This document shows, piece by piece, positions 1-23,420 of a stretch of DNA of 64,000 nucleotides. The notes under the pieces were generated by a model. It made no database searches. It saw nothing but the letters and a program-made list of their open reading frames with translations, and was not told where the DNA came from. The DNA lies in contig NC_092680.1 in the NCBI RefSeq assembly GCF_964355755.1, forward strand, positions 2,891,001-2,955,000. The letters run 5' to 3'. Both the position numbers and the translations under genes were made by a program. The DNA is from Antedon mediterranea (lineage: Eukaryota > Echinodermata > Crinoidea > Comatulida > Antedonidae). Each line of letters starts with the position of its first letter. Within the stretch, counting starts at the first letter, position 1.

Positions 1-3000
1 TAAGACAAATATTCAGTGACACTTTTTACACACTAAAACAACAGTTATATCGTATTTCTTACCAATGTTAAGAAATCCGTGCATCACAGGGCCTTTTATA
101 TTCCGTTGAAGATAGTATTTGAAGTTTCTTGGGTAAATCTTATAGTTTACATGAAAAACAATAAGATATGTAATATTTTACTCATTTTTAACGCATGTTT
201 GAGATGTTCTCAAATATTGTAAAATTAGTAGAAATTTGAAAAAAAAGAAAGAAATCAAAACTTGATGATATTTACCTCCTCAAACTTTGCCAGGACATGT
301 TGAAGATGTTCGAAATCACGTGTTGACAATACACTTTGGACCAAACGAGCGTTTCCCGCATTCTTACGAACAGACTGTAAAAAGATGTAGAGAACTTTAA
401 TTTTTACTTGAACCGACTGTTTGTTTAAAAATTATAGTATAATTACTTAATTAATATTTCATTCAGCAAGTCTACACTCATTGGTGCTGTGAACTATCTG
501 ATACCAGATATAATCAAAGATTAGTATTTTTTAGTAGCTTAGAGAGTCAACATTTAAATAAGAAATAGTAGAATGTCCTTACGTCTCTAAGTGTATGTAC
601 ATCTGTATCCAACAGAGTTTCATCAAGAGAACCAGTCTCATCTCGGCCACCCTATATCAAAGATATTATATATAATTCACTTTTAATTTTTGGCATTGAT
701 ACAAAAGATTTGTTATGGATTATCACATGCAGTTTATGTAATTACTAGCTACACAATAACAGCAAACATAACAAACAGAATGTCGTTACAGATACATTGG
801 TTAAGCTTGGTTCCCACTAGAATGTAACGCAAAAACGTAAACGCAACGCAAGCGTTTTAACCAATGACAACCGAAGTTATAGACAGTTAGTAATCACAAG
901 CGAATAAGCCATCGCTTGTGATTGGTCAATTCACTTGCGTTGCGTTACGTCTTTGTGTTGCGTCGCCAGTGGGAACCACGCTTTATATTTACTAATTACA
1001 GAAGCTTTAAGGTGATTACTTTACCGCCTCTGATGCACTATTGGAATGCAATTTATATAATAATCATACTCTACCTCTGCAAGTGACCGTAAAAGACGTT
1101 CATTATTTGTCTGGAAAACATCAGCTAAATCAGCATCCATTGTTCGTCCAGTCACTAGATTTGAAATTTGACAAAATATTATGAGACTATTAATTCGTAC
1201 TGATGTAAACAATGACAAAAGTACAGGAAAAAATTAGATCGTTATTTGATATTTTAACTCATGTTCATATGTCTATAGTTTATAATTTTTGCTTACAAAA
1301 ACTTAGTACTAAAACATTAAAATTAAAGATACCTTTCAACCAATTAATAGAACACGTCTATCGAAAAATCGCACATATAAAATATTTGAATATTCAATAA
1401 CTTACATTGTGTATAAGCGTCGTTGATTTTATTGACCTCCTACAAAACAATAAAATAAATTATAAATATATTTTATCAACTTTTTAAACAACAGCAACAA
1501 TTTGCAACTGTTTCATTATGTAAAAGGAAACGTCTGTCTCAATTATGTTTCAGTTTCTTATATTGTTTGATAAAAAAACGAAGAAGAACTTTACCTTATT
1601 CGTTTTCTGGATCAACACTTGGCTTATCACACGTTCATCGTGATTCTGTAATCACGAACACACATTGATTAATATTAAAAGTGTTTTCATTTTGTTTATT
1701 ACGTGTATATTTTGATTACTGTATTTTGTAATATGAATAGTTGTGTAAGGAGAGTTTAGTTTTACTTAGAACGAAGTAAGAAGTGGGCATTCTTTTTCTT
1801 TTCTACTGGTAACTTCTTAACTAGTTTTGTATTGTGATCCCATTTCAACTGAGTTCTATATTACAATACCGATAGGATTGAGGAACTAGAAGTCTCAAAT
1901 ACTATTTTTTCTATAGCAATATTTGAACGAAGAAGAATGTAAGATAAATAAGGTGAAAGAGTAAACAATAAATTAAATTTAGATTATTGTTCTCCTCTAG
2001 TTAACCGTTTTTTTCTAAAGTTGAAATAAATCTGGATTACCTGGATAGCAGGTATTAACACGTTGGCGGAAAAATATTCTGCCGATTCTAGAAGCAGAAG
2101 TAGGCAGTCTAGTCCAATGTAATCCGGTATTGATTCAATTAGCTCATCGACAAGTTCCTAAAATGGAAATAATTAATCACATAAATTAGATATACAGATT
2201 TAGTATTGATAATATATACAAATATGAAACCAAAAACAAAAATATCTAAAATTTAAAAAATTCTAGTTTCAAAAACAAAAGTAACCATCTAATAACACTA
2301 AATACTTTTATTTCCGCGATTATAAAACATTCAGGATAATTGAATTAATTAAAGATTTACAGCAACTAAAGTAATAGTTGTATTATACTTTGATAGGACG
2401 AACACAAAATAAACTTACACTTCCATATGCTACTTTGTAGTATGACTTAATTTCCTGGCGCTCTAGGTTTGTCGGTGGTCCAAGCTCTGATAGAATCACA
2501 GATATATCTGGATCTATAACATATATACAATATCAAGTTATATGATAATGTTTAACATTGTTTACTGATATTACATTTGTATATTTTTTCTCTTTTTTTG
2601 TTTAGGTGGAATAGTATCTCAATAAGATTACTTAAGGCACAAACTCACTTACAAATTATAATATCTTTTGAACTAAGAAATTATGGAACTCAACATTATT
2701 TCGATATTTTTCATTCATTTTTCGTGACTCGAAAACAATTAAATAAACCCAATCATTCGACATAGTTTACTTTAGTTCAAATAGTTATTATCAATAATAT
2801 AAATGCATACCATTTGACTGCAATACTTCGCTTAGAATGACTGAAGCCGTTACTTTGCTGAAAATTCGCATTTCACACTAAAACGAGTAATAGTACATTA
2901 GTAACAAAAGTGTACCTGTACATTTAGGTACCCATAAAGCTTGGTTCCCACTAGGACGCAACGTAAGGATGTAGACGTAACGCAAGCGAGTTGACCAATG

Positions 3001-4160
3001 ACAAGCGGCAGTTGAAATAATCCATCACTTGTGATTGGTCAAACCCCTTACGTTAAGTGTTGTGTCTCTTGTAGAACGCAACGCAAGGACGTAAGCGCAA
3101 TGCCGTTGTCATTGGTCAACTCCCTTTTGTTGCGCTTACGTTTCTTTCTCTTTATTTTTTTCCTATCAGTGCATATAAAGGCTTTAATGACTTTATTATT
3201 TATTATGAAAAAATGTGAATGAACACGTTAGATAAGCGAATACTTGATTATCCAACTCACCGGATATTCTCTGGACTCAATGCCGTCATTCACACTACAT
3301 TCGCCACCACAAACTCCGGATAAGGTTGGTCGAATTCTGTATTGGGAATCTCCTGATGGGCAAAACCCCCAGTTGCTCCAAGTTCCTGTAATACAGCCAG
3401 TACTAAGGCTATCATTGTGTCCTTCACCGTCATCACCGTCGTCACCTCCTCCATCGCCGCCGTCAACTCCTTCACCGCCGTCGTCATCGTTGTCCTCATC
3501 TTTGTCGTCATCTGTATCACCATTGTTGTTATTATTGCCTCCCGTACCTGATCCGCATGTATCAGAGCCTTTGCAGGTTTTTGTCTCCGTGTAGTCACTA
3601 CTTGTACATTCAATTCCACCACACGTTGCTTGTTCGTACAACCTGTAGCGTGTTTTAACTCCGCTTTCGCTCTGGCAATTCACGGAGCATTCTCCCCAGT
3701 CACCCCAAGTATCTAGCTGACAATTTACAGGACAACATCCCTCCGGTTGACAGGGAACACCCTCAGCTAAATTGTCACACTCATCGCACTCCGGGTACTT
3801 TGTACGCGTACGATTTTTGTACGCGTTGGCATCGCATTGTTCGGGACACGTGCTCCATTCAGACCAAGCCGTCGTAGGGCAGTTTTCATTACAGCATACT
3901 TCGCCACAATGAAACTCAACTGAAGATTGACAATTGCAACCGTCTGGTTTGGTTAGAACAGCTTGTCGACGAATACACTCCCGTCTATACTCTTGTTGGG
4001 TTGTGCTATGCTCGCAAATATGGCAAATACAAGATGTCCATGATCCCCAGTCACCATATTCACACAAATCGCTTTGGCATGTACTTTGTGCAGATACGCC
4101 ACTAAGATCATATATAAGAAAGATAAACAAAAGTAAACAATAAATGGTTTTAACGACCAT
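1..4160 (-). CDS. Secreted TSP1-annexin chimera, short form (3' end outside window)
   Basis: Exons, in transcript order: 4160-3261, 2877-2811, 2513-2419, 2157-2041, 1645-1595, 1439-1406, 1154-1075, 651-583, 374-276, 138-63; the last two expected annexin exons lie left of base 1. All junctions are GT-AG and in phase. Exon 1 (300 residues) has a hydrophobic signal peptide (1-25), three TSP1-like modules (about 33-88, 90-140, 142-202) with WxxW and six-cysteine patterns, an Asp/Gly/Asn-rich acidic linker (203-250) and a fourth module (256-301). The last cysteine of that module is the first codon of exon 2, which supports the splice. Exons 2-10 align with annexin repeats 1 to 4, including GGRDET, LSTRDFEHLQHV and GPVMHGFLNIG at the usual annexin exon borders. 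The GxGTDE calcium loops are missing. If the 3261 donor is not used, reading runs on to a stop at 3228. The role is unknown; I infer a secreted protein. Confidence 0.8.
803..983. mobile_element. Foldback MITE, family 1
   Basis: AAGCTTGGTTCCCACTAG at the left and CCAGTGGGAACCACGCTT at the right, with internal CGCAACGCAAGCG / CTTGCGTTGCG arms. Lies in an intron of the short TSP1-annexin gene. Confidence 0.85.
2937..3141. mobile_element. Foldback MITE, family 1 (compound copy)
   Basis: Starts AAGCTTGGTTCCCACTAGG and contains two rounds of the ACGCAACG.AAGG.CGTA block, so two copies are fused or nested. It sits in the intron joining the TSP1 exon to the first annexin exon. Confidence 0.75.
3411..3554 (-). 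repeat. Low-complexity Asp/Gly/Asn coding repeat
   Basis: Imperfect GAY/GGN triplet repeat inside exon 1 of the short TSP1-annexin gene. It encodes an acidic linker of about 48 residues (an Asn run, then Asp/Glu/Gly) between TSP1 modules 3 and 4. It is prone to length change and looks like a flexible, possibly cation-binding spacer. The long divergent antisense open frame here is an artefact of this repeat. Confidence 0.8.
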
Positions 4161-5200
4161 CGTGGAAGAGCTTTATAAACGTTCGTGCAACTGACCCTGG
4201 CTATTCAATATTCTGCTTTAAATACCATTCCTTCGCAGGATGTTGCATTACCCGCAAAATCAAAAGAAAGAAAGCATACTCGTATTACGTGACGTTATTC
4301 ATGAATCTTTTTAGTCAGATGTTTGGCATCGTAACGCGAGAACACTATATCTAACAATAAAATGATATGATCATTATATTGTATTTGGCGCCAGTGCTGT
4401 CACTATCGAATTAGATGTTAATTTTGTTTTCTAATTTAAGTTCAAATTTATTGAATCATATTCGTACTCCCGTGTTTCAAACAGAGATATCCATTTGGTA
4501 AATACACAAAAACACTGTTACAAACAGTATTCTTCCACAATTATTTTATAGTATCTCTCCAGTTAAGAACACTGAAACACTGAAAATGTCCTTTGCTTGT
4601 CTGGTCGTTATTTATTTACTGTTGTAAGACTGTTAAAACTTGTTATTTTGTTTGATGTTTTTATCTGTGTTTATTTTAATTGCTATGTTATTCTGTATAT
4701 TTGTTCATTCATGATCCAGAATTAGCTGGTCTTGTTGTAAACAACAGTGTGATTAAATTAAAATAAATAATAATGAATATATAATATTTATAACAACATT
4801 ATACTTACGCTCTAATCACTAAGTTCTAATACATCAACTTAGTTTTAAAAAGGAGTATTTTGAGATACAAATTATATGGTCATGAATTGTTGGATTACTT
4901 CATTAAAAACTTCCTAAAGCAGCTGTTGTAAAAACTTGTTTATAGACAATTATTTTAGGAAATAAGATACGAGTAACATATGTCAGGCGCATTGTAAAGT
5001 TAGGGTGTCTATTAGCAGTTTCTGTATATAATAGGGAAAACATGATATTCATATTTTGAATGATGACGTAGATTGTACAGTACATCAGTTACACTAATTC
5101 GTATCAGTTAGTCTGGTGTTAGCTTAAAATAAACTGGCTATTTTCAAATATCGCATCGTACTGAGAATGTTTAAGATTCCATCGTATTAACATAGTTAAG
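4161..5200. promoter_or_regulatory. Divergent intergenic region between the two TSP1-annexin genes
   Basis: About 1 kb of AT-rich DNA separates the two start codons, which face away from each other, so both promoters must lie here. A TATTTAAA-like box (reverse strand, near 4213-4220) sits about 55 bp above the minus-strand ATG. I see no convincing TATA box for the plus-strand gene. No other gene is visible. Confidence 0.5.
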
Positions 5201-8200
5201 ATGTATATTGTTAGTCCTTGTATTACTACACTGTTAATGCTTATTAGTCTATCTACTTGTGTATACGGAAATTGTCTGGAAGAGGATTGTGTTTTTACAA
5301 AATGGTCTGAGTGGTCTGGATGTATATGTGCAATATGCGACGAAACGGGAGACACAAAACAAAGTTGTTTTCGAACAAGAAGTTTGTTGAATCACGCTGA
5401 TGGCTGCCAGAATGAATGCGGTGAAACATTTGAGTCTGGTTGTATTGGCCAGTGCTGCAATACGTTTTGCGCTGTGACTGAATGGAACCAATGGTCTGAC
5501 TGTCGCTGTTTTGACGATGAGTTGATTGGCAGACGATCTCGGAACCGCACTGGTATAGATGGACAATGTTCAGTGCCATGTGATATAATATACGAAGAAA
5601 GCACATGCGATGACTTCTGTTGTCCAATTGACTGTCATCTTGGACAATGGAATGATTGGTCAGCGTGCTCAGTGGAATGTAACACAGAGGTAGGATATAC
5701 GACCAGAGTTAGAGAAATGGTACAGGGAACTTGTGGTGGAAACGTGTGTTCATTATTTGATTCCACTGAAGTTAAACAATGTAATGGAGTATGTGAATTA
5801 TCCGAATGGTCCTCTTGGAATTGCACTTGTGATCAGTGTATGATCAACTCGACAAATATTTTTGATCACTGTGTCCGAACCAGAATGAACTGTAGCGATC
5901 GTTGTGGTGATTTACTTGAAGAGAAATGCACTGAAGGTAACTGCTGCGATTCTACTTGTGAGCTGAACATTTGGAGTGAATGGACGGAATGTTCTGCACC
6001 ATGTGATTCTGCAGAGATCGGAACACAAATCAGGAGTCGATCAGTCGCAAGTCAATGCGCTGGACACCCATGTCAAAGTCTGGAAGATTCGCGTTTATGT
6101 AATGCTTCGTGTTGTCCACACCACTGCACTGTTAGTGATTGGGGTCAATGGACTTTATGTACCGCTAACTGTGAATCAGATAACGGAACACAAGTTCGTA
6201 CACGTAATTTGAATCAAGGAGCATGCGGAGGGTTAATGTGCAGTGACGAAGATTGGCGTGATATAAGAACATGTCAGGGAGCATGTCGTTTGGATTCATG
6301 GTCAGATTGGGTATGTCTTTGTTCGTCATGCAATAAAAACGACCCTGATAATCCTTACAGAGAATGTTCAAGACGGAGAGACGAGATCAATCCAGACATC
6401 TGTCGTGGTAACTGTGGAAGTCTTTTGGAGTATAAATGTGAGGGTGACTGTTGCGATGAGCTCTGCACGGTTGGAGAATGGGGCGATTGGACAACGTGTG
6501 ATGCTGCATGTGGGTTTAGCAGTATGGGAAATATGACTAGAACACGCCAACCATCTGAATCTTGCTCTGGCGATCCTTGTAGCAGTATTGTGGAGATTAA
6601 GGAATGTTTTTCACCCCACTGTTGTCCAGAAGATTGTGTAATTCATCCATGGGAGTCTTGGTTACCATGTAGTAATGAATGTTCAGTTGAAGAAGGAACA
6701 CGGGTAAGATATCGTTCTTTTACTCAAGGATCATGTAATGGCATGCTCTGCTCGGAAGGAGATCGTTTTGAAATTGAAAGCTGTCAAGGAAACTGCAATG
6801 TTAGTACATGGTCAGAGTGGTCATGTGATTGCCAAACTTGTTCAGTTATAAATAACACGGTGTTATATAATTATTGTACGAGAAATAGGACAGTATCCAT
6901 GTCAAGCGAATGCAGCACATGTGAAGAAAATGAAAGCATGTGCAGAAACTTTGAAGAAGAATGTTGTGATGAAACTTGTCTTGCCGATGAATGGTCTACG
7001 TGGTCATTATGTACTGTTGGATGCGAAACATATTCTAACGGCACACAGGAACGAACACGTCAACTAATTGAATTATGCACTGGTCGTCCATGTTTTGATG
7101 TTTATGATCAACGTGAATGTGGGTCTCACTGTTGCCCTGAAAACTGTACTTTTGGACCATGGGAGGAATGGGCAGAATGTAGTAGCAAATGCAGTACAAT
7201 AATTGGTTCGCAAGTACGATTTAGAGATATCAACCAAGGATCATGTGGTGGAAACATGTGCAATGAGACAGATGCAATAGATATTCGTACCTGTTATGGT
7301 TATTGTGAAGTTTCATCGTGGTCTGAGTGGAGCTGTGTTTGTAGTGATTGCTCAAATAGTAACTCAACCCTCTTTAATGATTGTCGACGAACACGTAGTG
7401 AGACAAATGATTGTGAAGGGTTAAATTCATGCGGAAGTTTATTTGAGAGCACCTGTTCTGCTGAGTGTTGTAATGAGATGTGTAGCCTGTCACAATGGAC
7501 AGAATGGACGTCTTGTTCAGCGGAATGCATGACAGATGGGACTGGATCTCAATATCGAGTTCGTAGCATCGATGATTTTTGTATGACAGACCCTTGTGAA
7601 GTATTATTTGAAAACAGAACATGTAATGCTATGAATTGTTGTCCTGTTAGCTGTACATTGGACGAATGGCAAAACTGGTCAACGTGCACAAGTGTTTGCA
7701 GTGACCAAGAAGGTTATCGAGCAAGGTATAGAGATTACAATCAAGGGTCCTGTGGAGGAGTAATATGCACAGACGACCATTATTATGAGGTTGAGGCTTG
7801 TATGGGCAATTGTACACTTACCACCTGGAGTGAATGGGATTGCATGTGTGAATTATGTAGTGACGAAGACACCAAGTTACGTAACTCATGTATAAGAGAA
7901 AGATCACAGGTGGTACCTGGTAGCTGTATAAGTGAGGATGTATGTGGATCGCTTGTAGAACGGGGTTGTTTTGAGGTCTGCTGTGACAAATCATGTGCCG
8001 TTACCGAATGGGGAGAGTGGAATACATGCAGCGCTCCATGTGATACAGACGAATTTGGAGAGCAGATGAGACACCGTAGTCCAATCGGTATTTGTCAAAG
8101 TGACCCATGTCATAATTTGACAGAGATTAGATCATGTTTAGCTGGATGCTGTCCAATTGACTGTTTTATGGGTGAGTGGACTGAATGGTTTACATGTTCG

Positions 8201-11200
8201 TCATTTTGTCAACATACAACAGGAGTACAAGCGCGGGCGAGAAATATGGAACAAGCATACTGCGGAGGATTAAATTGCACAGTCGACGACAACTACGAAA
8301 TACGGCCATGTCAAGGTGAATGTTTACTTTCAGAATGGTCATCATGGAATTGTTCATGTACTATTTGTAATCCGAACGAAATAAATTTTCACGAAGAATG
8401 CGTCAGAGAGCGTTATGAGATTCGCCCCGAAGAATGTGATGGTAGATGTGGATCATTGCTGGAGACTACATGTTCTGAGGAAGACTGCTGTGACGAGTTC
8501 TGTAGTTTAAGTCAGTGGTCTGAGTGGTCGGATTGCAATGCTGCTTGTGGAGTGAATGATACAGGCATAGCTTCCAGAACAAGGCAACCGGTAGCAGCGT
8601 GTTTTTCAGATCCTTGTGTCGATGTTTATGAGTCGAAACAATGTATGGGTCCAGAATGCTGTCCTGTGGATTGTAACATGGGAGAATGGACTCAATGGTC
8701 ACTATGCTCATCGATATGTTCCAGTGACAGTGGGTTAATGCACCGTAATCGAGAGATAATTCAGGGTGTCTGTGGTGGTGAGCTTTGTTTTGATAATGCT
8801 GGATATGAAATCGCTTCCTGTTATGGAAATTGCACACTAAGCGAGTGGACAGATTGGACATGTAAATGTGACTTTTGTGATCAGGATGCGATTCTTAAAA
8901 ATGACTGTATTCGCCAGAGGTCCGAAGTTTCTCCTGAATTTTGTATCGATGACTTATGTGGTACACTGATTGAACGGGTATGCTCTAGAGAGTGCTGTGA
9001 TGAATTTTGTATATTGAGTGAATGGTCTGTCTGGTCAACTTGTTTAGCATCTTGTAACACAAGTGTCATTGCTACAAAAGAGCGTAGCAGGGAGCCTATA
9101 GTTTGGTGTCTCGCTCCTCCTTGCAATTCTACCGAAGAAGTATCAATTTGCGATGACAGTTGTTGCCCTATAGACTGTACACTTGAAGAATGGAATGCGT
9201 GGCTGCCATGTTCATCCGCATGCTCGGACATAATAGGAACACAAATACGAGAAAGAGGAATGCATCAGGGATCTTGTGGTGGAGTGATTTGCTCAGAAGA
9301 TGCGGCATATGAGACACGCGTCTGCTATGGTACATGCCATGTTAATGATTGGACTGATTGGACTTGTAACTGTACAGCTTGTGCCATGGAATCTAATAAT
9401 CAGTATCAAAACTGTTCTCGAAAGCGAACATCAATATTAGACGGCTATTGCTCCGACCATTGTAGTGCCACAGAGCTGAAATGTGATGACTTGTGTTGTG
9501 ACGATTCTTGTACTGTAAACCAGTGGTCTGAGTGGACAGACTGTACAGCTCAGTGCGAATTAAATAGTACAGCATTGCAAGAGCGTTTTAGGAATTCATC
9601 ATCAACATGCGTTGGCGTACCGTGTGCTGAATTGTATGAAGCACGTACCTGTTACAGCCCAGAGTGCTGCTCTGTAAATTGTACAGTCGGTGTATGGTCC
9701 GAATGGACCATATGTTCATCTCGGTGTTCTGGTGAAATAGGCGTGAAACATCGTGTACGTGACGTACAGAATGGGTCATGTGGTGGAACATTATGTAATG
9801 TAACCGATGATCGAATTGACAGCGAATCATGTGTGGGAGAATGTCAGGTTTCAGAGTGGACGGAATGGATCTGTGACTGTAGTTTCTGTAGCAATTCAAA
9901 TTATTCGAGGCAAAATTGTACGAGACATCGAAATATTATTGATCCGGAAACGTGCTTATTGTCAGAATGTGATCTTCAAGAAACCAAATGTGGTGAAGAG
10001 TGTTGTGATGAAGATTGTGAATTGAGTGAATGGAGTGTCTGGTCAAATTGTTCTAAGTCATGCGATGAGACAGGTTCTGGAATAATGTATAGAGAACGTT
10101 CCATCATAAACCAATGTAATGCCGATCCGTGTGAACCTATCTTTGAAGAAAACGAATGCTTCCCGTCTTGTTGTCCCAAAGACTGTAAAATCGGCGTCTG
10201 GACTTTATGGTCACAGTGTACTGTACTTTGTTATTTTGATGTTGGAATTCAATCTAGATCAAGAGATATATGGCCAGAGGTATGTGGTGGGCGCTCGTGT
10301 AACAATTCGGATGTATATCAAGTGAAGCAGTGTTCAGGCCCATGTGAACTTTCAGAGTGGAGTGAGTGGGCATGTGAATGCTCACTTTGTAATGTTACGA
10401 CTGACCTACTCTACAATAATTGTTCAAGATCAAGAACTGAATCTGATTATATATGCAATGGGAACTGTGGTAACATAATAGAGCATCAGTGTGTGCAACT
10501 ATGTTGTGATCCTCAATGCAACGTGACTAACTGGAGTTTATGGAGTTCGTGTAGCCTAGATTGCGGTGTAGAAGGACACGGAGAGCAAACTCGAATAAGG
10601 TCTGTCAATGGTCCCTGTCGCGCCGACCCCTGTGATGCATTATTTGAGATTAAAAACTGCTCATCTGAATGCTGTCCTAGAGATTGTTTAATAGGATCTT
10701 GGACAGATTGGAGTAATTGTTCTGCTAGTTGTTCCTTTGCTGTAGGAACCAAACGTAGGTCTAGAACATTCTTTCAAGCTGAATGTGGTGGAATTGAATG
10801 CTTAGATATGGACAACAAAGAGGAGATAGAGTGCAATGGTGCATGTGAAATTTCAGATTGGAATCAATGGTCATGTGTTTGTCATTTCTGCGTTCCAGGT
10901 GACCAGTACCTTCATAACCAGTGTACACGGACTAGGAGTCAATCTCCCGAATGTACTGGTCTTGAAGAATCATGTGGACAACTTGAAGAAGAAATATGTG
11001 GTGATGAATGTTGTGATGATTTTTGTTTTGTCAGTGATTGGAGTGAATGGGGTGAATGCTCAGCTAATTGTGCAAATGAAACGAATGGAATACAAGAGAG
11101 ATCAAGGACGCAGATATCTCAGTTCTGTTTGGGTCCGCCATGCGAAGCATTGGTTATAAATAGAACCTGCAGCTCTACCTGTTGTCCACGTGACTGTAAC

Positions 11201-14200
11201 GTTCTGGAATGGAGTGAATGGTCAGCATGTTCTGCTAGTTGTTCTTTTGAAGTAGGAAATAAACGAAGATCTAGAACAATAGTCCAGGCCGAATGTGGTG
11301 GAATTGAATGTTTAGATATGGACAACGAAGAAGAGGTTGAGTGCAATGGTGCATGTGAACTTTCAGATTGGAGTCAATGGTCTTGTACCTGTCATTTCTG
11401 TGCTCCTGGTGACCAACATCTTCATAACCTGTGTACACGGACTAGGAATGTATCTCCCCAATGTACTGGTCTTGAAGAATCATGTGGACAACTTGAAGAG
11501 GAAATATGTGGTGATGAATGTTGTGATGACTTTTGTTTTGTCAGTGATTGGAGTGAATGGGGTGAATGCTCAGCTAATTGCGCAAATGAAATTAATGGAA
11601 CACAAGAGAGATCAAGGACGCAGATATCTCAGTTCTGTTTGGGTCCGCCATGCGAAGCATTGGTTATAAATAGAACCTGCAGCTCTACCCGTTGTCCACG
11701 TGACTGTACCGTTCTTGAATGGAGTGAATGGTCAGCATGTTCTGCTGATTGTTCTGCAATAGATGGGACACGAAATAGAACACGTGGTTTTATTCAGGGA
11801 GCGTGTGGAGGTGCTACGTGCGATACGGACATTTATGAGATGGAGACGTGTACAAGTTTATGTTCTCTTGGTGAATGGAACAATTGGAGTTGCTCGTGTG
11901 CATTTTGTAATCCCGAATCAACATCATCATTATATAACCTTTGTGAAAGAACTAGAGAAGAACATGGTATTTGTGACGGTCGATGTGGAGAATTAACTGA
12001 AGAAAAATGTACTGAATCATGTTGCGACGATTTCTGTGCCACTGACGAGTGGAGTCCTTGGAGCGATTGCAGTGATGGTATATCAGTGCGGAATAGAAAT
12101 GTGGTTTCAGTATTCTGCTTTGGAGATCCATGTGGAGGAATTCAGGAAGAAAACGTTTGCCAAGAAAACTGTTGTGTGTACTCGGAATGGACGACATGGT
12201 CTAACTGTTCAACTAACTGTGCTGAAACTACTGGATATCAGTCAAGAAGCAGAACATTAGAAAGCGAGTGTCTGCAAAATGCGTGCACTGACAGTGATGA
12301 AATCCAATCTTGTGTTGGAACATGCCACCCATCTGATTGGTCTGCTTGGGAATGCACATGTACGTTTTGTAAGCCAGAATCACAGATATTATTCAACAAT
12401 TGTCAACGTTCCAGACATGACGATAGTTCAGCATTTTGTTTTGAAGCGTGCGAACCAGTTGAGGAAACAGAATGCACAGTCGAATGCTGTGATGAGTTTT
12501 GTTTCTGGACCGAGTGGACATCTTGGACGGAATGCCAACTAAATGAAAGGTCAAGAAGTCGAAGCCAGTCATCAACCTTTTGTATTGGTTCACCGTGTGG
12601 ATCATCAATTCAGGTTGAAGAATGCCTTTCATCGCTGACTACCGTTTCAGCTGCAATCGATAAGGCTATAACTGTATTCATCACTGACGAACTTAAAATC
12701 TGTAGTTCTACAACCTGGACGACTTGGAGTGATTGCTTCTCAAAATGTTATGAAAATGTAAGTCAACTAAATACAAAATAATTATCTCATATCATTAAAT
12801 ATTATATCAATTCATTGCATATCGCCCATTAATAAAAGTCTATTTCTTTCATCTCGTACGTATATTATAAGTGGGTCAAATCTATTTTTATTTATCATAA
12901 AGTTAAGTAATAATGCATTGATCTTTATTTATTTAAGATACATCATATTCAGCGAAAGACCTCATTATTATTACCTCAAACTCAATATCATAATTAAGCC
13001 TATTACTAATTGTATATACATAATATAAAAATAACGCTTAAAAAAGAACAACGTTTCGACTCATTACGATAAACGTACCCTCATTACTAATTGTATGTTA
13101 TTTTATCAATATAACTAAAATTGATAATATAAATATTTTAATTTTGGTATTTAATAAACAGAATCCACTACAATATCGTAATCGACAGCTTGTGCCTATG
13201 ATGTGTAATAGTACCCAGTGTATTGAAACAGAGGAAGAAACACGAGCATGCCAGGTATTGTTCAATATTAATAGTCAACTGGCTCTATTATTCCGATTAA
13301 TAATTGAACATTACGTTTTATATTACTATGACTATTTTCAGGGTACCTACTACAAATTAACAAATCATTCGGAGTTCGATGTTCACGAGGAGTTGGTAAA
13401 TCTACACAATATATCAGGTAGCTACCTGTTTATTATTGATATATTGAGACTGTTCATATACTAGATTTAATGAGCATAAATGATATACTAAAACAGTTAA
13501 GAAATATTTTCTTTATTGAAGCATTCTTTCTTTAATTTTTTTCAAATAAATGTAATGCTTTTCGTTCATTTCAACACTATCCAGCCTACCCTTGCGTACT
13601 TAAACCTTTGACTCCATAGTTGCCACGACAGATTACCATTGCCGTCATGTATAGCGGCTTAATTCACTGAATACATACTACACTATACTAAATACTGTTA
13701 CTAACGTTTATATTATTACAGCAAATCAGGATGAGGCAATAAGCATATTCTTCAGTTCAAAAAGTATGAGAGAAAGGCTGCTAATACGTGATAAACATTT
13801 AGCTGCATTTGGATACGTGAGTTTTTATAAAATCAAATGTTACTTTATTAGAGTAGTCACAAAATGATAAAACAAACTCCGAAATATTGAATTATATATT
13901 GTGTGCGTATTTTTCAGCATCGACAACCATTAGACAATGTATACCACGATCGGAAAACACCCCTATTTGTGGAAAGTCGTTGAACCTAATCTTTTTTAAT
14001 CGTCAATAACTAATTATCTAACTCAATTTAATTAATAAACAGGGTAACATCAGGTGGTTAAAATCATGACCGAAAAATTAACGCGCGATTTACCGAATTT
14101 TGCCCTTACGTAAATTTATATATAGATGAGTTGCATTACTTGTTTGTTTTCAAACTTACTAGTGGACCCCCTCTGGTTTTTAGTCACAAAAGTTAATAAC

Positions 14201-17197
14201 ATACCTTTAGTTGATTCTAGCCTCCATGATTCTAGGCAGGTTCAATTCACAACGTTCTGCAGAATTACAGTAGGCACACACGCGGGGGCCTCGTTTGTAA
14301 ATACCGAGGTATGGTGTGCACTTGCTGCCTGATTCTTATAACCCTGGCCCACATGAGTTGAATACTCGAGATACTAATAACAAATGGACATTGTAATGGT
14401 ATTTCGATGTTATCACACGATTGACAGTATTGTTATGTGCATTCTCTTTTAAGCTTAATCTTTCGAGCTATCTTATTTGTAGCTTTGGCTGAAAAAATAA
14501 TAAAAACTAGAAATTTACAAATTAATAGATCTCTTATTTTTTTGTCAATACAGACACTTTCTGAATTTCTAATAAACGTTACGTCACATGACACCCATGC
14601 ATGTATCAATGTTTTGCTAGAGAGTACCACTCAATCGACGACACGTCTTTTGAACGATCTCAGTTCAGGAACATTTGACGTGGAATCAATTCTGGAGGTA
14701 ATAATACCTCTTTCTAACCAGGTAAGTCATCATGACAGTGCCGTATATTGATACATTTAATGCAAATTATTATTTAAAAAGAAAGAATTGAAAACTACCA
14801 ATTACTATAAATTCAGAGCTAATTTCTAAGTACTTACTATTATACTATTTTTTTTATTTTGTTGTTTTTTGGTGTTGTTTTTAAATTCTTCAGACCCAGT
14901 TAAAGTCTGTTGAAGACTTTTTGTAGCTTCTATTATTTAAAAAAAATCAAAATGGCTTCCTTAACTTTTTCCAATAATTATGAGGAAATCTTATAATGTT
15001 TCCTATTATTACTGTATAGGAAATGTTAACAGTTCAAGATTCATACATGGAAGGTAATAATGATATATTTTATTTTGTAAATAGACAAAATAGCATAAAA
15101 GTGAAGCACTCGATTCTCGGTACTGTATCTAGATGTCTACAGCATCATAGGAATATTCAGTAATACAGCATCACATATGTTTTCCATGTATCGACTAGTT
15201 CATAACCTAACCCTGAACAACAAAATTGACAGGCACCACATGTGATACAAATTAGATGCTTTATTCCAATGATACTCGACAACCGATGTTGGTATACAGC
15301 ATTGAATATCGGATAAACACAAGTGAAACCTCTCCAGACAAAGTAGTAACTATTAGTTTAAAAGTCTAATATTATATTATTATTAAAAATATTTCCGATT
15401 TTTATATAGAATACAATAGAAGTCTTGAAACAGTTGTTTTAAACAGTGAAATGGACACAGCGGTAAAGAGGTTATTAGGTTCACTGCTCTTGGTAAGATT
15501 TTTATATTTTAATAATAGGGCCTATGGTGTAAGTTTGTTTTCAACATATTTAAACATGATTGCATTGATTAAGCCAGTAATGAACTATTATTTTATTTCT
15601 AGGGCATGCGTGCTGAATCCAAAGTTGTAAGCATCTCTCAGATAAACAAAGACGTTAACAGAATTTTAGAAGTAAGACGACCATTATTACTATTTTCAAC
15701 TTTTTGGCTTACTATGACCACTTGTTTCTTCCTAAACACCACATTTTGTCTCCTTTATGTACAGAAACTTCCACCTAAAATACTCACGTTTCAAGTATAG
15801 TGTATCAATAGAGAGAGATAGTAAGAAAATTCAGTCGCAATAACACTAATATTTTAGAATAAAATGCTGTGTACTGTTTTGCCATAATTTAAATAATACA
15901 ACATATTTTCTAGGGTGATGATATAGATGTTCAAAGTGTTTTAGCCATACGAAGTTTGGAAGACATCAACACAATTTATGAAGAATTTACATTGGTAAGT
16001 AACATTTAATTTATAATGCACAGTGGTATACAATTAACATTAAACAATAACTAATTCCTATTGATAAAAAAAAAATTAATCTATTAATCATATAATATAC
16101 GATAACAATACTCAGTTAAGTTACTGACAGAGGTAATAGTGTTCATAAATTAGACTAATGACTTATACATTTCTGTTTAATCTAACTAGTCCAATAGTGA
16201 CCTAACAGAATTTTTATTCGACCAATCAGAGGATATTTACATCATGGGATATGTTAAAATCGGTACGTAATAAACCATTTTATCATTTGTGTTTGGATGA
16301 GAGGCAATGATTTTGAATTTTTAAAATTGAAAAGTCTTTTCAATACCTTTTAGAAACTTTTAAGTGTTATATCTTATTTATATAAACTTTCCAATGGAGA
16401 CCTATGTAAAACAGATTAGATGTAAACATCTCCAATATTACAAATCGACAATTTGGCGTTAAGATTTTGGAGCTAAACTGTAAAAGTTAGCCATAATAAT
16501 CTACGTATATCTACCAATTTCGGTGAGTGGCCAGATAAAAATCGTCATAAATGTGTGTGTTGAGTAGAACACATTCACAGCTCAATTTGGATATATGTAT
16601 GTGATCAAACGGACCGAATCCGGGTTCAATGTGAACGTAGCTTATGTCTGATATTTAAACATTTCTTGTAGTTTCTTATGGACGAAGTACTACTGATTAC
16701 TGGGCTGCCGTTTTCAACCGTTTGATACACGTTACACCGTCTTCAAGCAATCATTTTACACGAATATTGGTACAGAGAGCAGAGGTAACGTAATGTATTT
16801 ACTACTGTATTCTTGATAAGAGAATTTGAAAATAAATATGGTGTCTTATTTGGGTGACCTTTACAGAATGAATGTCTATGCATTGGATATGTTGTTTTAA
16901 AACGAAAGAAACGTATATTATGGTTTAAAGACAGATACAGTATAAATAATTGCATTTTTCTTTTGTTTTTAAATTGCATTCGATCATTGCCAAGGTACAT
17001 ATACTATTTAACATTTAAAAAGGTTTTGACAAAGACTATATTATTTAACATCTTTACAGATCGACTTAAATGGAATTACACAACGTTATCAAGAACTGTA
17101 TGGCCGAAGCTTAGAAGATGACGTCATTAATAACTACAGTGGTCCTTGCAAGGAGCAAGCAATTACTACTATTAATCATCAATTTATACATGCCTAA
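5201..17197 (+). CDS. Giant secreted TSP1-annexin chimera (2859 aa, 45 TSP1 modules + annexin core)
   Basis: Exons: 5201-12757, 13162-13254, 13342-13417, 13722-13816, 14554-14721, 15020-15053, 15410-15492, 15603-15671, 15914-15994, 16190-16262, 16672-16784, 17060-17197. The summed length, 8580 bp, is exactly 2860 codons. Exon 1 is one 7.56 kb open frame: signal peptide (1-24), then 45 TSP1-like modules as 15 repeats of a three-module unit (leads CELSEWSxW, CCDEFCxxSEW, CCPxDCxxGxW). The last module continues into exon 2 after an AAT|GTAAGT donor and ends at residue about 2550. Exons 3-12 encode a four-repeat annexin core of about 309 residues; for example LAIRSLEDINTIYEEFT and IDLNGITQRYQELYGRSLED match annexin repeats 3 and 4. 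Exon sizes 95, 34, 69 and 113 equal those of neighbouring annexin genes. The calcium loops are degenerate. Many N-x-S/T and WxxW sites fit a secreted glycoprotein. Function is not known. Confidence 0.85.
5270..13254 (+). repeat. 15-fold tandem array of a TSP1 triplet (~165-170 codons per unit)
   Basis: Coding super-repeat of about 500 bp. Each unit has three different TSP1-like modules: one with a CxCxxC insert after WSxW, one starting CCD/CCN, and one starting CCPxDC with a CGG motif in its middle. Counting the leads gives 15 of each class. Unit 14 has a shortened CCV lead and unit 15 a degenerate one interrupted by a cysteine-free stretch of about 25 residues. Confidence 0.85.
10721..11740 (+). 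repeat. Recent 510-bp tandem duplication inside the TSP1 array
   Basis: Copies 10721-11230 and 11231-11740 are in register at exactly 510 bp (170 codons) and much more alike than other units, with long identical blocks such as the one coding CGDECCDDFCFVSDWSEWGE. This shows the array still grows or homogenises by unequal exchange. One CCP lead became RCP in the second copy. Confidence 0.9.
13342..17197 (+). other. Annexin-coding exon block of the giant chimera
   Basis: Ten exons covering annexin repeats 1-4. Repeat 1: FDVHEELVNLHNIS then NQDEAISIFFSSKSMRE. Repeat 2: SSGTFDVESILEVIIPLSN. Repeat 3: GDDIDVQSVLAIRSLEDIN. Repeat 4: YWAAVFNRLIHV then LVQRAEIDLNGITQRY. Intron phases (1,0,0,1,0,0,0,1,0) match the annexin genes downstream. 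One intron inside repeat 2 that the minus-strand annexins keep is absent, merging two exons into one of 168 bp. Confidence 0.85.
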
Positions 17198-17589: not shown

Positions 17590-20500
17590 TCATGATTTCT
17601 GCTCGTTAATCAATGCAAGTAACGCGTTTTCAAAATCTCCTCGCGTTTCACCCTTAATTGTGTCACGAAGACTCTTCCCATGCTTAGCTGCATACACTGC
17701 CTTAATTGTTCCAAGATCAACCTGAAATGTCATCCGCTTATTATTAATGATTTGAAGGTATGTAATTACGTTTTGCAGGACAAATTATCAACCACCCACC
17801 ACCACCAAAAAAAAAATGCACTGATTTTACTAACCTCACTACGCGAAACCAAACAGCGCATCAATTTCTCTTCATTTGTGCCTATCCCTTTCATCGAACT
17901 TGCAAGCATGTCTGCGTAATATTCACTTGGGTTACGCACACATTTTACTAGAGAAGAAAAACACGATTATATAATTAAAATCTTAAAGAAATTGTATATT
18001 TTGTGAGTTAGGTAGAAGTGATATTTCAGAAAATGCGATGATCGCATACGTATTCATATTATATTATAAATTATAGCACTGTTTAAAGGTTAAAAGATAA
18101 AATAAAGTGTATACAAAAGTTATTTTTTGATTATTTGTATTCTTGTGGGAATAAAATAAATTAATTGTAGGCATAAAAATAATGTTTTATAGGCTTTACA
18201 TTGTTATACGTTATTACAATTCAAATAAAAAATAATAATAAATATGATATAACCGATGGTAAGGTAACTTTATTCTTGTGGGAATAAAATAAATTAATTG
18301 TAGGCATAAAAATAATGTTTTATAGGCTTTACATTGTTATACGTTATTACAATTCAAATAAAAAATAATAATAAATATGATCAAACCAATGGTAAGGTAG
18401 CTATACTGTAGGTCACCGGACATTTCACTTTTTATTGCTTCTTCAATAGACTTCTTAGAAATCTAAAAAATCAAATAGCAAAAATAGATAATCATCTCAA
18501 AATAAATAACATAGTATAATGACATTAATTTTGATTTTGTTTATATATATATTTAGGCAAATTCCCAAGGATAACAATGAGCGAATTCATTCACTATCCT
18601 TAAAGGTGACAATCCAGTTCACAAGAAAAACATACATAAGATGGTCTACATAAACAAAATCTTATTACAAGTCTTTAGGAGTAGAGTTATAATTTGTCAT
18701 TAGATCAAATCCTGACATGATAGAACTTGAACCCAGGACCCTTGGATTGGTAGGCCACCGACCATATCTCCATTACTAAATCTCAGACGCACTGTAAAAC
18801 AAGTGAAACATTTATGTTTGAAACAGGAGGAAGAATCTTACGTTTCCATAAGCATCAAACACCGCCCTCACGTGTGCATAACTTCTTCCCAGTAATACTC
18901 GCTGAAATTCAGACTCATCTGTTCCAAATTTACCTTCACCAGCCTGTAATGAAAACAAAATAATATTATAATATCAATATATTATTACGTCAATCGTCAA
19001 TGTTCATTGCTCTATTTGTAGTAAATTTATATACAGCACCATAATAATTAGTAAATATACAAACATCCTCTAAATACCTCATAAAGGGCTTTTGCATCCG
19101 AATCTATCTTTTCTTGGTCAACTTCATCCGAGTCATCCCTTCCGGCCTAAACAAATATAAAAATATAGTAAGCGCCCAAAAACTAAGTAAAATATTATAG
19201 CAAAATACAAAGAGCGACGACAGAGGGCGTGATATTTAATATTTCGGCCTATATTGAAGATACTGTTAACTCGAGTTTTTAAAACTTTGTTCCCAGGCAC
19301 CGCTCTTTTTATAATTGTTTAGAATTGTATTTACTCCTAAATTGATTATGAAATTTAAAATGGATTTCTAGTTCGAACTTACTGCAGAAAGCCCAACCAG
19401 TAGACGCTCGAAATCACCCTTTGTTTCACTTTTTAAGTCTTCCTCAAGATTGCGACCAAAACCTAAGGAAATAACATTCGATATTCAAACTGATTGCAAA
19501 GGAAAGATGAGTATATTAAATGTTTCAAGATACACATAAAATACTTTGTAACGTTTAACTAGTAAACGTTTCGTAGGCCTACTCAGAAAGCGTTGCACGA
19601 TGAGGCCCGACGGTGCATGCTGTCTTAAAACTCGACTCGACGAGTCTTCTTCCTCTTGAGATAGCGTCAGGGGCGTATTTTTTATTTTTCTCCAGACGCG
19701 ACGAGACGACTCGTCGTACGATGCTGTCTGAGTTAGCCTTTACGGAATGTAACATTGTATATTTTTATCTTTAAAAAACAAGTCTTACCTTCCTTATACG
19801 CTACTTTTATTGCTTTTATTTGCTGAAAAACAAACACTTAAAACTTAAAATAAAGTATGTTTATTATCTAAACTGTTTTAGGCCTAGGAAAAGACTGCTG
19901 CGTGTACTTCTCTACTTTCTTTTATCATATTCTTTTACAATTGATGAAATAATTAGGACCATTGTAGGCCTACAGTATGTTTAAATGAAAAATAAGCTGA
20001 TAATTACCGCACTGGTTCGAGTACACAGGATTTCAATCAAAAGATTTTCATTAGTTCCTGCACCCTAAACGTGCATTAAATACATAAAAAAAATCATCAT
20101 TTAGTTTATAAACATTTAGTATTAAATGCGTTGTATGCAAATGTTTTCAATTTATTCTACTAAAACACTTGGTTAAGCTTGGTTTCCAATTGGAAGTAAG
20201 GAAAGATCGTAAGTGCGCCGCAATTAATTTGACCAATCACGACGCATGAATCGTAAGCTAATAGCTAATATATGCTAATAATGATTGGTCGACTCATCTA
20301 AACCAAGCTTTATAGAGTTGTTCATACGTACTTTCATTGCCGCTCCAAGACATTTGGCATCAAACAACGGCGGAAGATCCAATAAAGCTAACAGCACCTT
20401 TTCAAAATTGCCACTGCATTCGCTCTTAATGTCGTCAACAAGATCCTGAAATGAATTGTTGAGTATGTTAAACATAACTTAGTTTACACACAATCGAGTG

Positions 20501-23420
20501 AGGTATACGTTTGTGGAAATAGAAAGTCACCAAAGGTCACATTTAGAGAGGGTCATTTTGGTGTACATACTCAACTCATGCAGCATTAACTTGACCCGAC
20601 TTACAATACCTGCCACCAGCAACCACACTGACGTGATCCTTTCTTAAACGCCGAAACAGGAATGTATATATTAATGTATGTATGTATGTTGATTGATTGA
20701 ACCTACCCTGCCATAACACGTTTTATAATGCAGCTTTAGTTCCTGCCGTTGAGGATTGTTGCGGTATGCAATGATATCAACTAGTGCCTTCTCATCGGTT
20801 CCTGAAAAAAAGAGTAAACGTAATTCATTAATCTATATTCATTACGTTACGTTGTAGAAACATAACATACCGTAAACATATATTTCAAGTTTAGAAGTAG
20901 ATAACACTGTCTTGTTGGATCAGTTTACACTTATATAAAATAAGGGATAGGGAAACTTCCAGTACGACAGGCCGTAGGCCTACATTATATTAATTAATAA
21001 TATTAACTTTTACTTATAACATTACAGCATTTTCATACTATATGAAACCAGAATATATGGTACATAGAACGGAAACAAAATATGAATTAAAAAAGGAGAT
21101 GAAAAGTCTATCAATATTTGATAACGATTTCTTTAAATCGTTTAGTCTACTGTTTATTCAGTTCTCAACAAAAGATTAGTGAAAAACTGAAATTTCCGCC
21201 ATTTGTACGATTACATAACACGCAATGCTATACCCTCGGTGGTCGAGGATATAATTATATAACTTGAAACGTTGATATGAAAATGAGGTGAATTATTTAA
21301 CTGAACTTACTTAAATGATAATCATCTAATACTTACCCATTCCTTTCATGGCCTTCCGTAAGATTTGAACATCTTTATCTTTGTCAAAGTTTGCGTATGC
21401 ACGGATTGTTGGCTTGTAACGGAACAAAATAAAAATGTATTTTAGTTTATTTAACTAAAACAATACAACATCTATCAGTATAAAGCTAATTCATTTTAAT
21501 TTGATTTATCTTACAACGGAACCGAAACATATACCTTAAACTATTTGTACTTCAACATAAACAAGATGCTTGTTCCCTTTGCAAAATTGAAAACTTTTTG
21601 CAACACGATCACGTAGCCACAGGTTCATTATGGTGGAATGAAGGATCGAATTATGACATTACTTTAATCGGATCTTCAAACGTATTATTAATTAAAAAAT
21701 ATTATAAATTATAACTGCTGTAAAGCCAGCATATCTTGTACATGGTTTGTTTTTTATGGCTTAACTAATGGTAAATTGGCAACGTAGTAGTTTGAGGCAT
21801 TTCTGCTGCGTATGGCGCCCCATATTTCAGGTATAGTAATTAAATAAAGTATATGGTTATCTACATATCAGTAGGCCTATAGCGCCACAAAATATGTATA
21901 CAATAATCAAACACGAATAAACCGTTTCTACACATACTTGGTGTTAAAATTTAACACAAAATAACTTATATAGAAATTTATTCAATTGTATAAATATTTA
22001 ACGTAGGTAAATAACATGTGAATGAGGTGCTCGTGACTTACCAAGATAAAGTGAGTTGACCGAAAGAACGATTAGAGTTCACAAAGTAGGCTATCGGTTT
22101 CGTAATTCAGCGCTTGTGTGTAACGCTTAGTTCCCACTAGGATGTAACGCAACGACGTAAGCACGACGTAAGCAATCTAAACAATTACAAGCGATGGATT
22201 ATCCGAACTTTCACGCGTGATTGGTCAACTCGCTTGCGTTGCGCTTACTACGTCCTTGCGTTGTGTCCTAGTGTGAACCAAGCTTAAAAGCGAGCGCACG
22301 CATTGTGATAGTTCGCACGTCAAGCACGCACATTAAATAGTCAATCCTTCTCAACAGGTACACATATCCCCAAAATCATTACCATCATTCCCCATTAGTG
22401 AGGATGGACATCATGTATGGAATGGATTGAATAAAGCATAATTCCCACTGAATGTTTTCATACGATGATATGCATGTGAAATGTTGATGAACAGGCGTAT
22501 GAGATGCGTGAGCGTGAGTTTCATGTCATAGTGTAGACTGCCTGTTATGCTGGGATATGGAGGGAGTTACCCTCATCATTCATCCTGGGTTCTCTATAGC
22601 TCAACCCTGAGGGCCCAGTCAGTTTCAGTTGGTCATCTGATAGCCGACCTCGTCCCACCCACAAATCTTACCGTAAGGAGAGTAGGCCTACCCTTAACGC
22701 ATAAAAAGACCGATATAACCTGACTAAATTAATACTGTCAACAATTATAGGCTACATTAACATAATACGGTATCTCCGATGTTACTTAACGCAATGTGAA
22801 TTTGTATCACTATTATTACGTCTAATGTATTTTTAGCACATTTTACATATGTTTTTTTTTCCATTTTTTTGGGAGAGATTTGACACTTATTAGTGGTTTA
22901 ATCATAAATCTTAAAAGCTTCGACAATTTAAAGATTTTCTCTCATCGTTTGACATTTAAAAAAATAAATGTATTGTCGTAATTAACATACCGGAAATATA
23001 AATATTATTGCTTGTTTCTTGTTGAGTGGGTACTAAAATAAAATTGTATAGTCTTTGAACGTTTTCTCACATGCTGTAACACAAAATGTAAATAATTTTT
23101 GCCGTGAGCACTTTCTTATTGTTACGACTCTATCAAGCTTAAAATCATGTAGGTATCAGTATACAAATGCCCCATATTTAACAATGGCAAAGTCTATATC
23201 ACGTCAAAGCTGGTCAAAATAGCATAGAGCGTTGCACAGATTCGCGACAAAACGCATACCGTATATAACCATTGATTTTGATGACCATTTTCACCATCAT
23301 ATTCACGTACAGTATTACAATAATTATACACAAAATACATACACTGTATAATATCTAATATTATTTAAAATACTATAATTAACGTTAAAATTAGCAGTAT
23401 ATACTTACAACTGCAGCCAT
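17590..23420 (-). CDS. Annexin (319 aa, four repeats, intact calcium loops)
   Basis: Exons, in transcript order: 23420-23409, 21412-21337, 20801-20707, 20445-20332, 20064-20008, 19822-19789, 19462-19383, 19146-19078, 18943-18842, 18462-18387, 17947-17835, 17721-17590; total 960 bp, 319 residues plus stop, the usual size of an annexin. A very short N-terminus (MAAVPTIRAYANFD) leads into four annexin repeats. Type II calcium loops are present in each: KGMGTDEK, GAGTNEN, KFGTDES, KGIGTNEE. Annexins bind acidic phospholipids with calcium and act in the cytosol at membranes; there is no signal peptide here. All splice sites are GT-AG, though the donor at 18386 (GTTTGA) is weak and lies in a tandem duplication. 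It shares every internal intron with the short chimera at the left edge. The paralogue starting at 24942 diverges from it. I cannot name the vertebrate orthologue. Confidence 0.9.
18138..18403. repeat. Two-copy 133-bp tandem duplication covering an exon end
   Basis: Units 18138-18270 and 18271-18403 are almost identical, starting TATTCTTGTGGGAATAAAA. The second unit includes the last 17 coding bases and the splice donor of the annexin exon 18462-18387. The first unit is a decoy copy of that exon end. Confidence 0.9.
18721..18787 (-). mobile_element. tRNA-like SINE head (relic)
   Basis: On the minus strand it reads as a degenerate tRNA with a B-box-like GGGTTCAAGTTC. No intact A box or cloverleaf, so it is a SINE fragment rather than a tRNA gene. 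It lies in an intron of the minus-strand annexin. Confidence 0.4.
20175..20310. mobile_element. Foldback MITE, family 1
   Basis: AAGCTTGGTTTCCAATTGG at the left and AACCAAGCTT at the right, in an annexin intron about 20 bp from the exon ending at 20332. Confidence 0.75.
22124..22285. mobile_element. Foldback MITE, family 1
   Basis: GCTTAGTTCCCACTAGGATG at the left and CCTAGTGTGAACCAAGCTT at the right. In the first intron of the minus-strand annexin. Confidence 0.8.

Follow-up and report, generated by a model that had tools for sequence, protein, structure and literature searches.

Annexins are as a rule leaderless, as a preliminary description of the DNA analysed here had assumed, and the available excerpt of one account calls it still an enigma how they reach and act on the outside of the cell when they have no signal sequence (PMC10882027). 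This norm has published exceptions: excerpts of the worm literature report signal peptides for annexins of Heterodera schachtii and H. glycines (PMC4388550) and class SmANX6 of Spirometra mansoni as a secretory annexin (PMC11195529). In the sea urchin spicule matrix, according to the excerpted text, annexins and Thsd7b-type thrombospondins are found as separate proteins (PMC2909932). Here we analyse a window of 64,000 nucleotides from the crinoid Antedon mediterranea (C11:2891001-2955000, in a genome of 354 Mb and 18 contigs), by which we mean the whole stretch, and whose own numbering is used below wherever no contig is named. It contains gene A, a fused gene model at 5201-17197 on the plus strand, and A2, a second gene on the minus strand that starts at 4160. 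Judged from the sequence, the two very probably form a divergent pair in which each gene encodes one protein, composed of a signal peptide, TSP1 modules (45 in A, four in A2) and a C-terminal annexin core of four repeats. For gene A, a fusion is the best reading of the sequence and is well supported, backed as it is by a second neighbouring gene of the same layout.

Gene A: TSP1 modules ahead of an annexin core

The open reading frame of gene A begins with an ATG at 5201 and meets no stop codon until 12781, and the donor AAT|GTAAGT at 12757/12758 closes its first exon. The encoded protein starts with MYIVSPCITTLLMLISLSTCVYG, which by eye reads as a typical signal peptide. Spliced as one, one and ten exons, the 12-exon gene comprises 2860 codons with a single terminal stop. 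This arrangement had been put forward in the preliminary description, and its parts were recovered on re-examination: the coordinates and the donor of the leader-bearing TSP1 frame are as claimed (the signal peptide being a judgement by eye), exon 2 does complete the last TSP1 module by bringing an R-x-R, three cysteines and the end of module 45, and the join to ten further in-phase exons with four annexin repeats is open over its full length. The exons of gene A are as follows.

5201-12757, plus strand: exon 1, signal peptide, TSP1 modules 1-44 and the start of module 45, unbroken
13162-13254, plus strand: exon 2, the rest of TSP1 module 45 (..YRNR..C..C..ETRACQ), phase 0 at both ends
13342-13417, plus strand: exon 3, start of annexin repeat 1; boundary as in annexin C, recovered by aligner query e only
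13722-13816, plus strand: exon 4, annexin repeat 1
14554-14721, plus strand: exon 5, end of repeat 1 and start of repeat 2, with the first shared cysteine (ACINVLLES)
15020-15053, plus strand: exon 6, annexin repeat 2
15410-15492, plus strand: exon 7, annexin repeat 2
15603-15671, plus strand: exon 8, linker and annexin repeat 3
15914-15994, plus strand: exon 9, annexin repeat 3
16190-16262, plus strand: exon 10, annexin repeat 3
16672-16784, plus strand: exon 11, annexin repeat 4
17060-17197, plus strand: exon 12, end of repeat 4, with the second shared cysteine (SGPCKE) and the stop codon

Gene A contains 46 matches to W-x-x-W, two of which overlap within one module, giving the 45 TSP1 modules that had been claimed. 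The Pfam search suggested at that stage bears the array out, as both TSP1_spondin (E 9.4e-87, 26 stretches) and TSP_1 (E 5.6e-9, 23 stretches) lie above their cut-offs. Reading of the module list shows an order of three module types repeated 15 times. Within the giant exon, at about 10700-11720 on the plus strand, the adjoining module triplets 34-36 and 37-39 read as near-identical, and these near-copies suggest that the array has grown through recent duplication. The closest paralogous TSP1 array elsewhere in the genome lies at C10:22138673-22156500 (plus strand), where an open frame of 1425 residues is followed by more TSP1 exons and, further downstream, by exons that by eye look cadherin-, CCP- and EGF-like. 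An intron that splits a TSP1 module in this paralog was considered as a homologue of the one in gene A; its position is near, its phase by reading differs, and it was discarded as evidence.

The annexin core of gene A was confirmed by the suggested Pfam search (Annexin, E 2.3e-16), in which the profile marks two stretches only, and by phmmer against PDB sequences, which returned annexin VI (E 4.2e-25) with 6b3i covering query residues 10-305. Our own splice-aware aligner was run on the core with six ordinary annexins from the same genome as queries, namely C, d, B, e, C6a and C6b, and gave scores of 160.5, 187, 148, 190.5, 161 and 157, respectively. From 15020 onward the exon boundaries of all six agree with the model, barring a spurious 9-nt exon (15812) and a shortened 3' end. 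Exons 13722-13816 and 14554-14721 were recovered by C, d, B and e and misplaced by C6a and C6b, and exon 3 was found exactly by e alone; repeat 1 is the weakest part of the core, and its start gives a weak match. The aligner controls, run with query d, stayed at or below 71.5 for 15 shuffles, at 45.5 for the minus strand and at or below 67.5 for 15 of 16 other 4.5-kb tiles, the sixteenth of which scored 159 and proved to be A2; in 8-kb tiles the background is higher, up to 124.0. An additional exon between exons 4 and 5, at 13918-13938 (21 nt) or 13918-13968 (51 nt), proved unneeded, as the alignments of C, d, B and e join 13816 to 14554. The query behind the Pfam and PDB results for the core, and behind its first genome search, has 316 residues and includes seven from this discarded exon.

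Nine introns lie inside the gene A core. In a comparison of nine annexin genes, with A2 and F (an annexin described below) standing outside the table, all nine have the same phase within four columns as in B, d and e, eight of them at exactly the same place, while seven of nine match in C, C6b and C10, five in C6a and four in C2. The intron at column 184 (184/0) is confined, among the nine genes, to those on chromosome 11, which are A, B, C, d and e. Since its intron map matches that of the chromosome-11 annexins, gene A most likely derives from that group, with the gene structure retained, at an identity of 20-24% to the ordinary annexins of the same genome; the ordinary paralogs (C10 apart) share 44-58% among themselves.

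The junction between the two parts of gene A also has a counterpart among the ordinary annexins. Exon 3 begins AG|GGT AC in phase 0, the same as the second coding exon of annexin C. By reading, d and F have the near-identical AG|GGA AC and B has AG|CCA AC; in e, C6a, C2 and C10 an AG stands a few codons further upstream, and none was seen there in C6b. The first coding exon of annexin C consists of four codons (MELF), followed by a phase-0 intron before GT, and the position of this exon is occupied in gene A by the TSP1-closing exon 2, which an 87-bp intron 2 separates from exon 3 with the frame kept. Within 12700-13341, the ATGs able to reach exon 3 in frame all lie inside exon 2.

A2 and the features shared by the two cores

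The control tile that scored 159 is the minus strand of 1-3400, directly 3' of a TSP1 open reading frame that starts at 4160. Over this region together with the sequence to the left of the window, six queries score from 137.5 (gene A) to 256 (annexin e); d, B, C and e concur on most exons, and query A placed them poorly. The A2 model has 12 exons and 609 codons with one terminal stop, encodes 608 residues and has intron phases 0,1,0,0,0,1,0,0,0,1,0. Its layout is a signal-peptide-like start, four TSP1 modules with an Asp/Gly/Asn-rich linker ahead of the fourth, and an annexin core, and the exons are placed as follows.

3261-4160, minus strand: exon 1, signal peptide (by eye), four TSP1 modules and the Asp/Gly/Asn-rich linker; donor CCG|GTGAGT, phase 0
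2811-2877, minus strand: exon 2, the least certain, with a candidate module-closing cysteine and then the start of repeat 1; phase 0 in, phase 1 out
2419-2513, minus strand: exon 3, annexin repeat 1
2041-2157, minus strand: exon 4, end of repeat 1 and start of repeat 2, with a shared cysteine (DCLLLLLES)
1595-1645, minus strand: exon 5, annexin repeat 2
1406-1439, minus strand: exon 6, annexin repeat 2
1075-1154, minus strand: exon 7, annexin repeat 2
583-651, minus strand: exon 8, annexin linker or repeat 3
276-374, minus strand: exon 9, annexin repeat 3
63-138, minus strand: exon 10, annexin repeat 3
C11:2890876-2890758 and 2890273-2890154, minus strand: the last two exons, to the left of the window
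4161-5200, no strand: stretch between the two start codons, probably a promoter region shared by A2 and A

Against PDB sequences the A2 core finds annexin VI (E 9.1e-37), and the whole protein against Pfam gives Annexin (E 2.9e-18) with three stretches marked. Four tandem annexin repeats are thus present in both A and A2, by PDB and Pfam similarity and by alignment over all four repeats. The two TSP1 families fall under the curated Pfam cut-offs in A2 (27.1 of 41 and 19.4 of 21.6 bits), where the four modules were counted by reading, and the TSP1 part is 37% identical to the N-terminal part of A. A genome search with the A2 core returned 11 matches, ten of which are its own exons and the eleventh, at E 0.92, annexin C10. 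The least certain exon, exon 2, has as its first codon a Cys that would complete the last TSP1 module before repeat 1 begins; within that intron its acceptor ranks second among 35 and its donor third among 47. A phase-0 intron joins the TSP1 and annexin parts in both genes. By eye, the open frames of both genes start with a hydrophobic leader, which would concern the annexin part only if the fusion is transcribed. The genes stand head to head and diverge, their start codons 1,040 bases apart, and the order signal peptide, TSP1, annexin is present twice.

The two cores share a loss that bears on their function. Scanning of the gene A core and reading of the A2 sequence found no type II Ca2+ motif K/R-G-x-G-T. 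A scan of eight ordinary annexins gave two or three copies in each of seven and none in C10. With this motif gone from both cores, the sequence makes classical Ca2+-dependent membrane binding unlikely for either. The proposal that one gene couples adhesion modules to a membrane- or matrix-binding fold therefore stands as far as the single gene is concerned, which is supported at genome level, but finds no support as regards classical membrane binding.

The cores also share a gain. The only two cysteines of the gene A core align with cysteines of A2 (ACINVLLES/DCLLLLLES and SGPCKE/DGRCQD) in ten-row, eleven-row and pairwise alignments alike, and none of nine ordinary annexins has a cysteine at either position. 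The chance of two cysteines of A falling on the six of A2 among about 300 columns is near 3 in 10,000 by our own arithmetic, made post hoc. One of the shared positions is at the end of repeat 1 and the other in repeat 4. Annexin repeats 1 and 4 pack together, so that a disulfide between them is possible in the fused cores. The two cores are also poor in lysine (eight residues in A and 14 in A2, where nine ordinary annexins range from 20 to 36), and so is the TSP1 array. The composition of the gene A core is closer to that of the TSP1 array than is the case for the eight other annexins compared, a set that did not include A2 and F.

One gene or two at each locus

The sequence could also be read as a separate TSP1 gene and a leaderless divergent annexin at each locus, the pair having been duplicated as a block and the annexin starting from an ATG in the junction exon or from an unseen first exon. 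Several observations weigh against a fusion and point in this direction. Joint duplication of neighbouring TSP1 and annexin genes would give the pair without any fusion, ordinary annexins adjoin, and our tree neither unites A with A2 nor rejects their grouping (p-AU 0.464, long branches). In-frame ATGs that could start a standalone annexin are present in exon 2 of gene A (13198 and 13201, with a third at 13248 usable only with a very weak donor) and in exon 2 of A2, and the four-codon first coding exon of annexin C shows how easily such exons are overlooked. Words like AATAAA/ATTAAA follow the unspliced stop at 12781. The junction of gene A is weak in comparison with 60 others: the exon 2 donor CAG|GTATTG is at the 2nd percentile and the exon 2 acceptor at the 3rd, the exon 3 donor scores below all 60, and the 87 bp of intron 2 are shorter than any (minimum 101); two acceptors deeper in the core are likewise below all 60, and the weak sites are thus not junction-specific. 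In A2 the junction sites are ordinary to weak (donors at the 21st and 26th and acceptors at the 9th percentile of 70), two acceptors fall below all 70 compared, and exon 2, whose annexin likeness is weak, was chosen from eight open candidates. On the other side, the TSP1 frame is stop-free from exon 2 to exon 3 of gene A, and an unspliced exon 2 reads into the annexin exon. Both TSP1 genes would require an unseen 3' end, and in the A2 model the last TSP1 module would be left without its final cysteine. A search of the 8.2 kb upstream of the A core for a short first exon (ATG, at most 24 codons, a GTAAG/GTGAG donor and phase 0, weaker donors falling outside the search) recovered the known first exon of annexin C as a check and yielded two candidates, both within the TSP1 exon in other frames. 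We therefore consider two genes at each locus unlikely.

A fusion might also be real with intron 2 of gene A retained, in which case a single exon at 13162-13417 would carry a 29-residue, largely hydrophobic linker. That the 87 bp are divisible by three, stop-free in frame and preceded by a weak donor speaks for this variant and against the model as drawn. At 0.25 the GC content of intron 2 is, however, like that of an intron, the exons on either side having 0.42 and 0.37; its acceptor is at the 40th percentile and this acceptor coincides with the annexin exon start in C and in the alignment of query e, and retention is distinctly improbable in our view. A third possibility, that the annexin tail is a decaying passenger of a read-through fusion from which selection has gone, would fit the low identity of the gene A core to its paralogs and the 19 of 62 invariant annexin residues that it retains. 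Yet the core has no stop in 309 codons, where about 22-24 are expected from base composition and the other frames have 25 and 23, a count that is biased because the model was selected for openness, although most boundaries were recovered via paralogs. The intron map is intact, and A has a hydrophobic residue in 61 of the 75 columns that are hydrophobic in ordinary annexins, against 34 of 159 polar columns (Fisher p 1.4e-18). Lysine in gene A lies below the drift expectation (P 0.003), as drift toward intron composition would raise it. A2 is open as well and keeps 65 of 76 hydrophobic columns hydrophobic, against 31 of 166 polar columns, and we regard a decaying passenger as very improbable. 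One further observation runs counter to a secreted fusion: N-glycosylation motifs, a gain of which was considered as a sign of secretion, are not enriched, with five in A (P 0.27 by shuffling) and none in A2, and these counts leave that sign unsupported.

For the probably fused genes A and A2, we hypothesise that TSP1 exons joined one of the annexins clustered at this locus (F, A2, A, B and C) at the phase-0 intron just before the core, which would have routed that annexin into the secretory pathway. The fused protein would be secreted. In the extracellular matrix its TSP1 array would form a long rod bearing glycans, and its annexin core, possibly fastened by a disulfide that links repeats 1 and 4, would serve as a Ca2+-independent head for binding or assembly instead of binding membranes under the control of Ca2+. 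This picture of the protein is a tentative one. Its possible history, which appears to us about evenly poised, would be that of an annexin lineage that captured TSP1 exons at its own first intron, lost its Ca2+ sites, gained the disulfide between repeats 1 and 4 outside the cell, became the head at the end of giant matrix proteins and persists in a divergent pair. If this is true, a multidomain annexin with a signal peptide would amount to a natural experiment on a fold committed to the outside, would show which losses (Ca2+ sites, lysines) and gains (shared cysteines) attend life outside the cell, and would give eukaryotic annexins a multidomain architecture.

Neighbouring loci and comparison with described systems

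The cluster on chromosome 11 runs F (plus), A2 (minus), A (plus), B (minus) and C (plus), of which two ordinary members follow gene A within the window.

17608-21424, minus strand: ordinary annexin B, which serves as context and as a control for the intron map
26238-29245, plus strand: ordinary annexin C, with MELF as its first coding exon

Annexin F (C11:2882876-2889258, plus strand) stands tail to tail with A2. It was found only by splice-aware alignment, with scores of 614.5 and 646.5, and is absent among the matches listed in the Pfam genome search; by eye, most of its Ca2+ motifs look altered. A tile at C11:2887001 (plus strand) scored 217 and probably covers the 3' part of F. Annexin C10 (C10:5709608-5713882, minus strand) is a third strongly diverged annexin, without K/R-G-x-G-T and with lysine not depleted, and has no TSP1 match nearby among the matches listed. 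Alignment in 8-kb tiles called no hidden annexin core near the TSP1 loci of C9 (120.5, 60 runs) and C10 (124.0, 20 runs), at the C10 end (best 115.0, 18 runs) or in the window from 29.3 to 64 kb (best 97.5, 32 runs), the scores of 124.0 and 115.0 at C10 being taken as background.

Two further loci in the window encode extracellular modules. At 32356-39948 on the plus strand lies a gene with TSP1 modules (Pfam TSP_1 in three of three segments), followed by what by eye is a likely membrane-spanning stretch and, further on, by an HGELSSQN motif with a weak kinase match below the cut-off (E 0.052); this gene may encode a TSP1 receptor whose kinase domain is altered. At 53455-56261 on the minus strand, F5/8 type C and MAM domains occur on nearby frames and probably belong to one extracellular gene.

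Among known proteins, the TSP1 part of gene A resembles multi-TSP1 secreted proteins, examples of which are SCO-spondin and properdin, in its long array of six-cysteine modules with W-x-x-W and R-x-R (spondin-type TSP1, PF19028), and differs from them in that 45 modules, 15 times three, are followed by an annexin core. With the annexin superfamily (PF00191), A and A2 share four repeats and similarity to solved annexins, together with the intron positions shown for A. Gene A differs from it by the putative signal peptide and the TSP1 modules in front and by an identity of only about 22%, and both A and A2 are without the type II Ca2+ motif.

The architecture had been proposed as undescribed. 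No TSP1-annexin protein is named in the titles or abstract beginnings of the literature matches listed, a body that leaves most subscription journals uncovered, so that the combination holds up as undescribed within that scope, and annexins with a signal peptide were already known (excerpt of PMC4388550). We infer from the sequence a fusion architecture that appears real and new, together with the function proposed for it. Bacterial annexins likewise combine annexin repeats with other domains; in the excerpted text these partners are proteases, a lipase and toxin domains, and the word thrombospondin is absent from the whole paper (PMC3894181). With the worm annexins that have signal peptides or are predicted to be secretory, A and A2 share predicted entry into the secretory pathway, but whereas the excerpts describe the worm proteins as annexin repeats and leave a TSP1 domain unmentioned (PMC4388550, PMC11195529), A and A2 carry TSP1 modules ahead of the annexin core.

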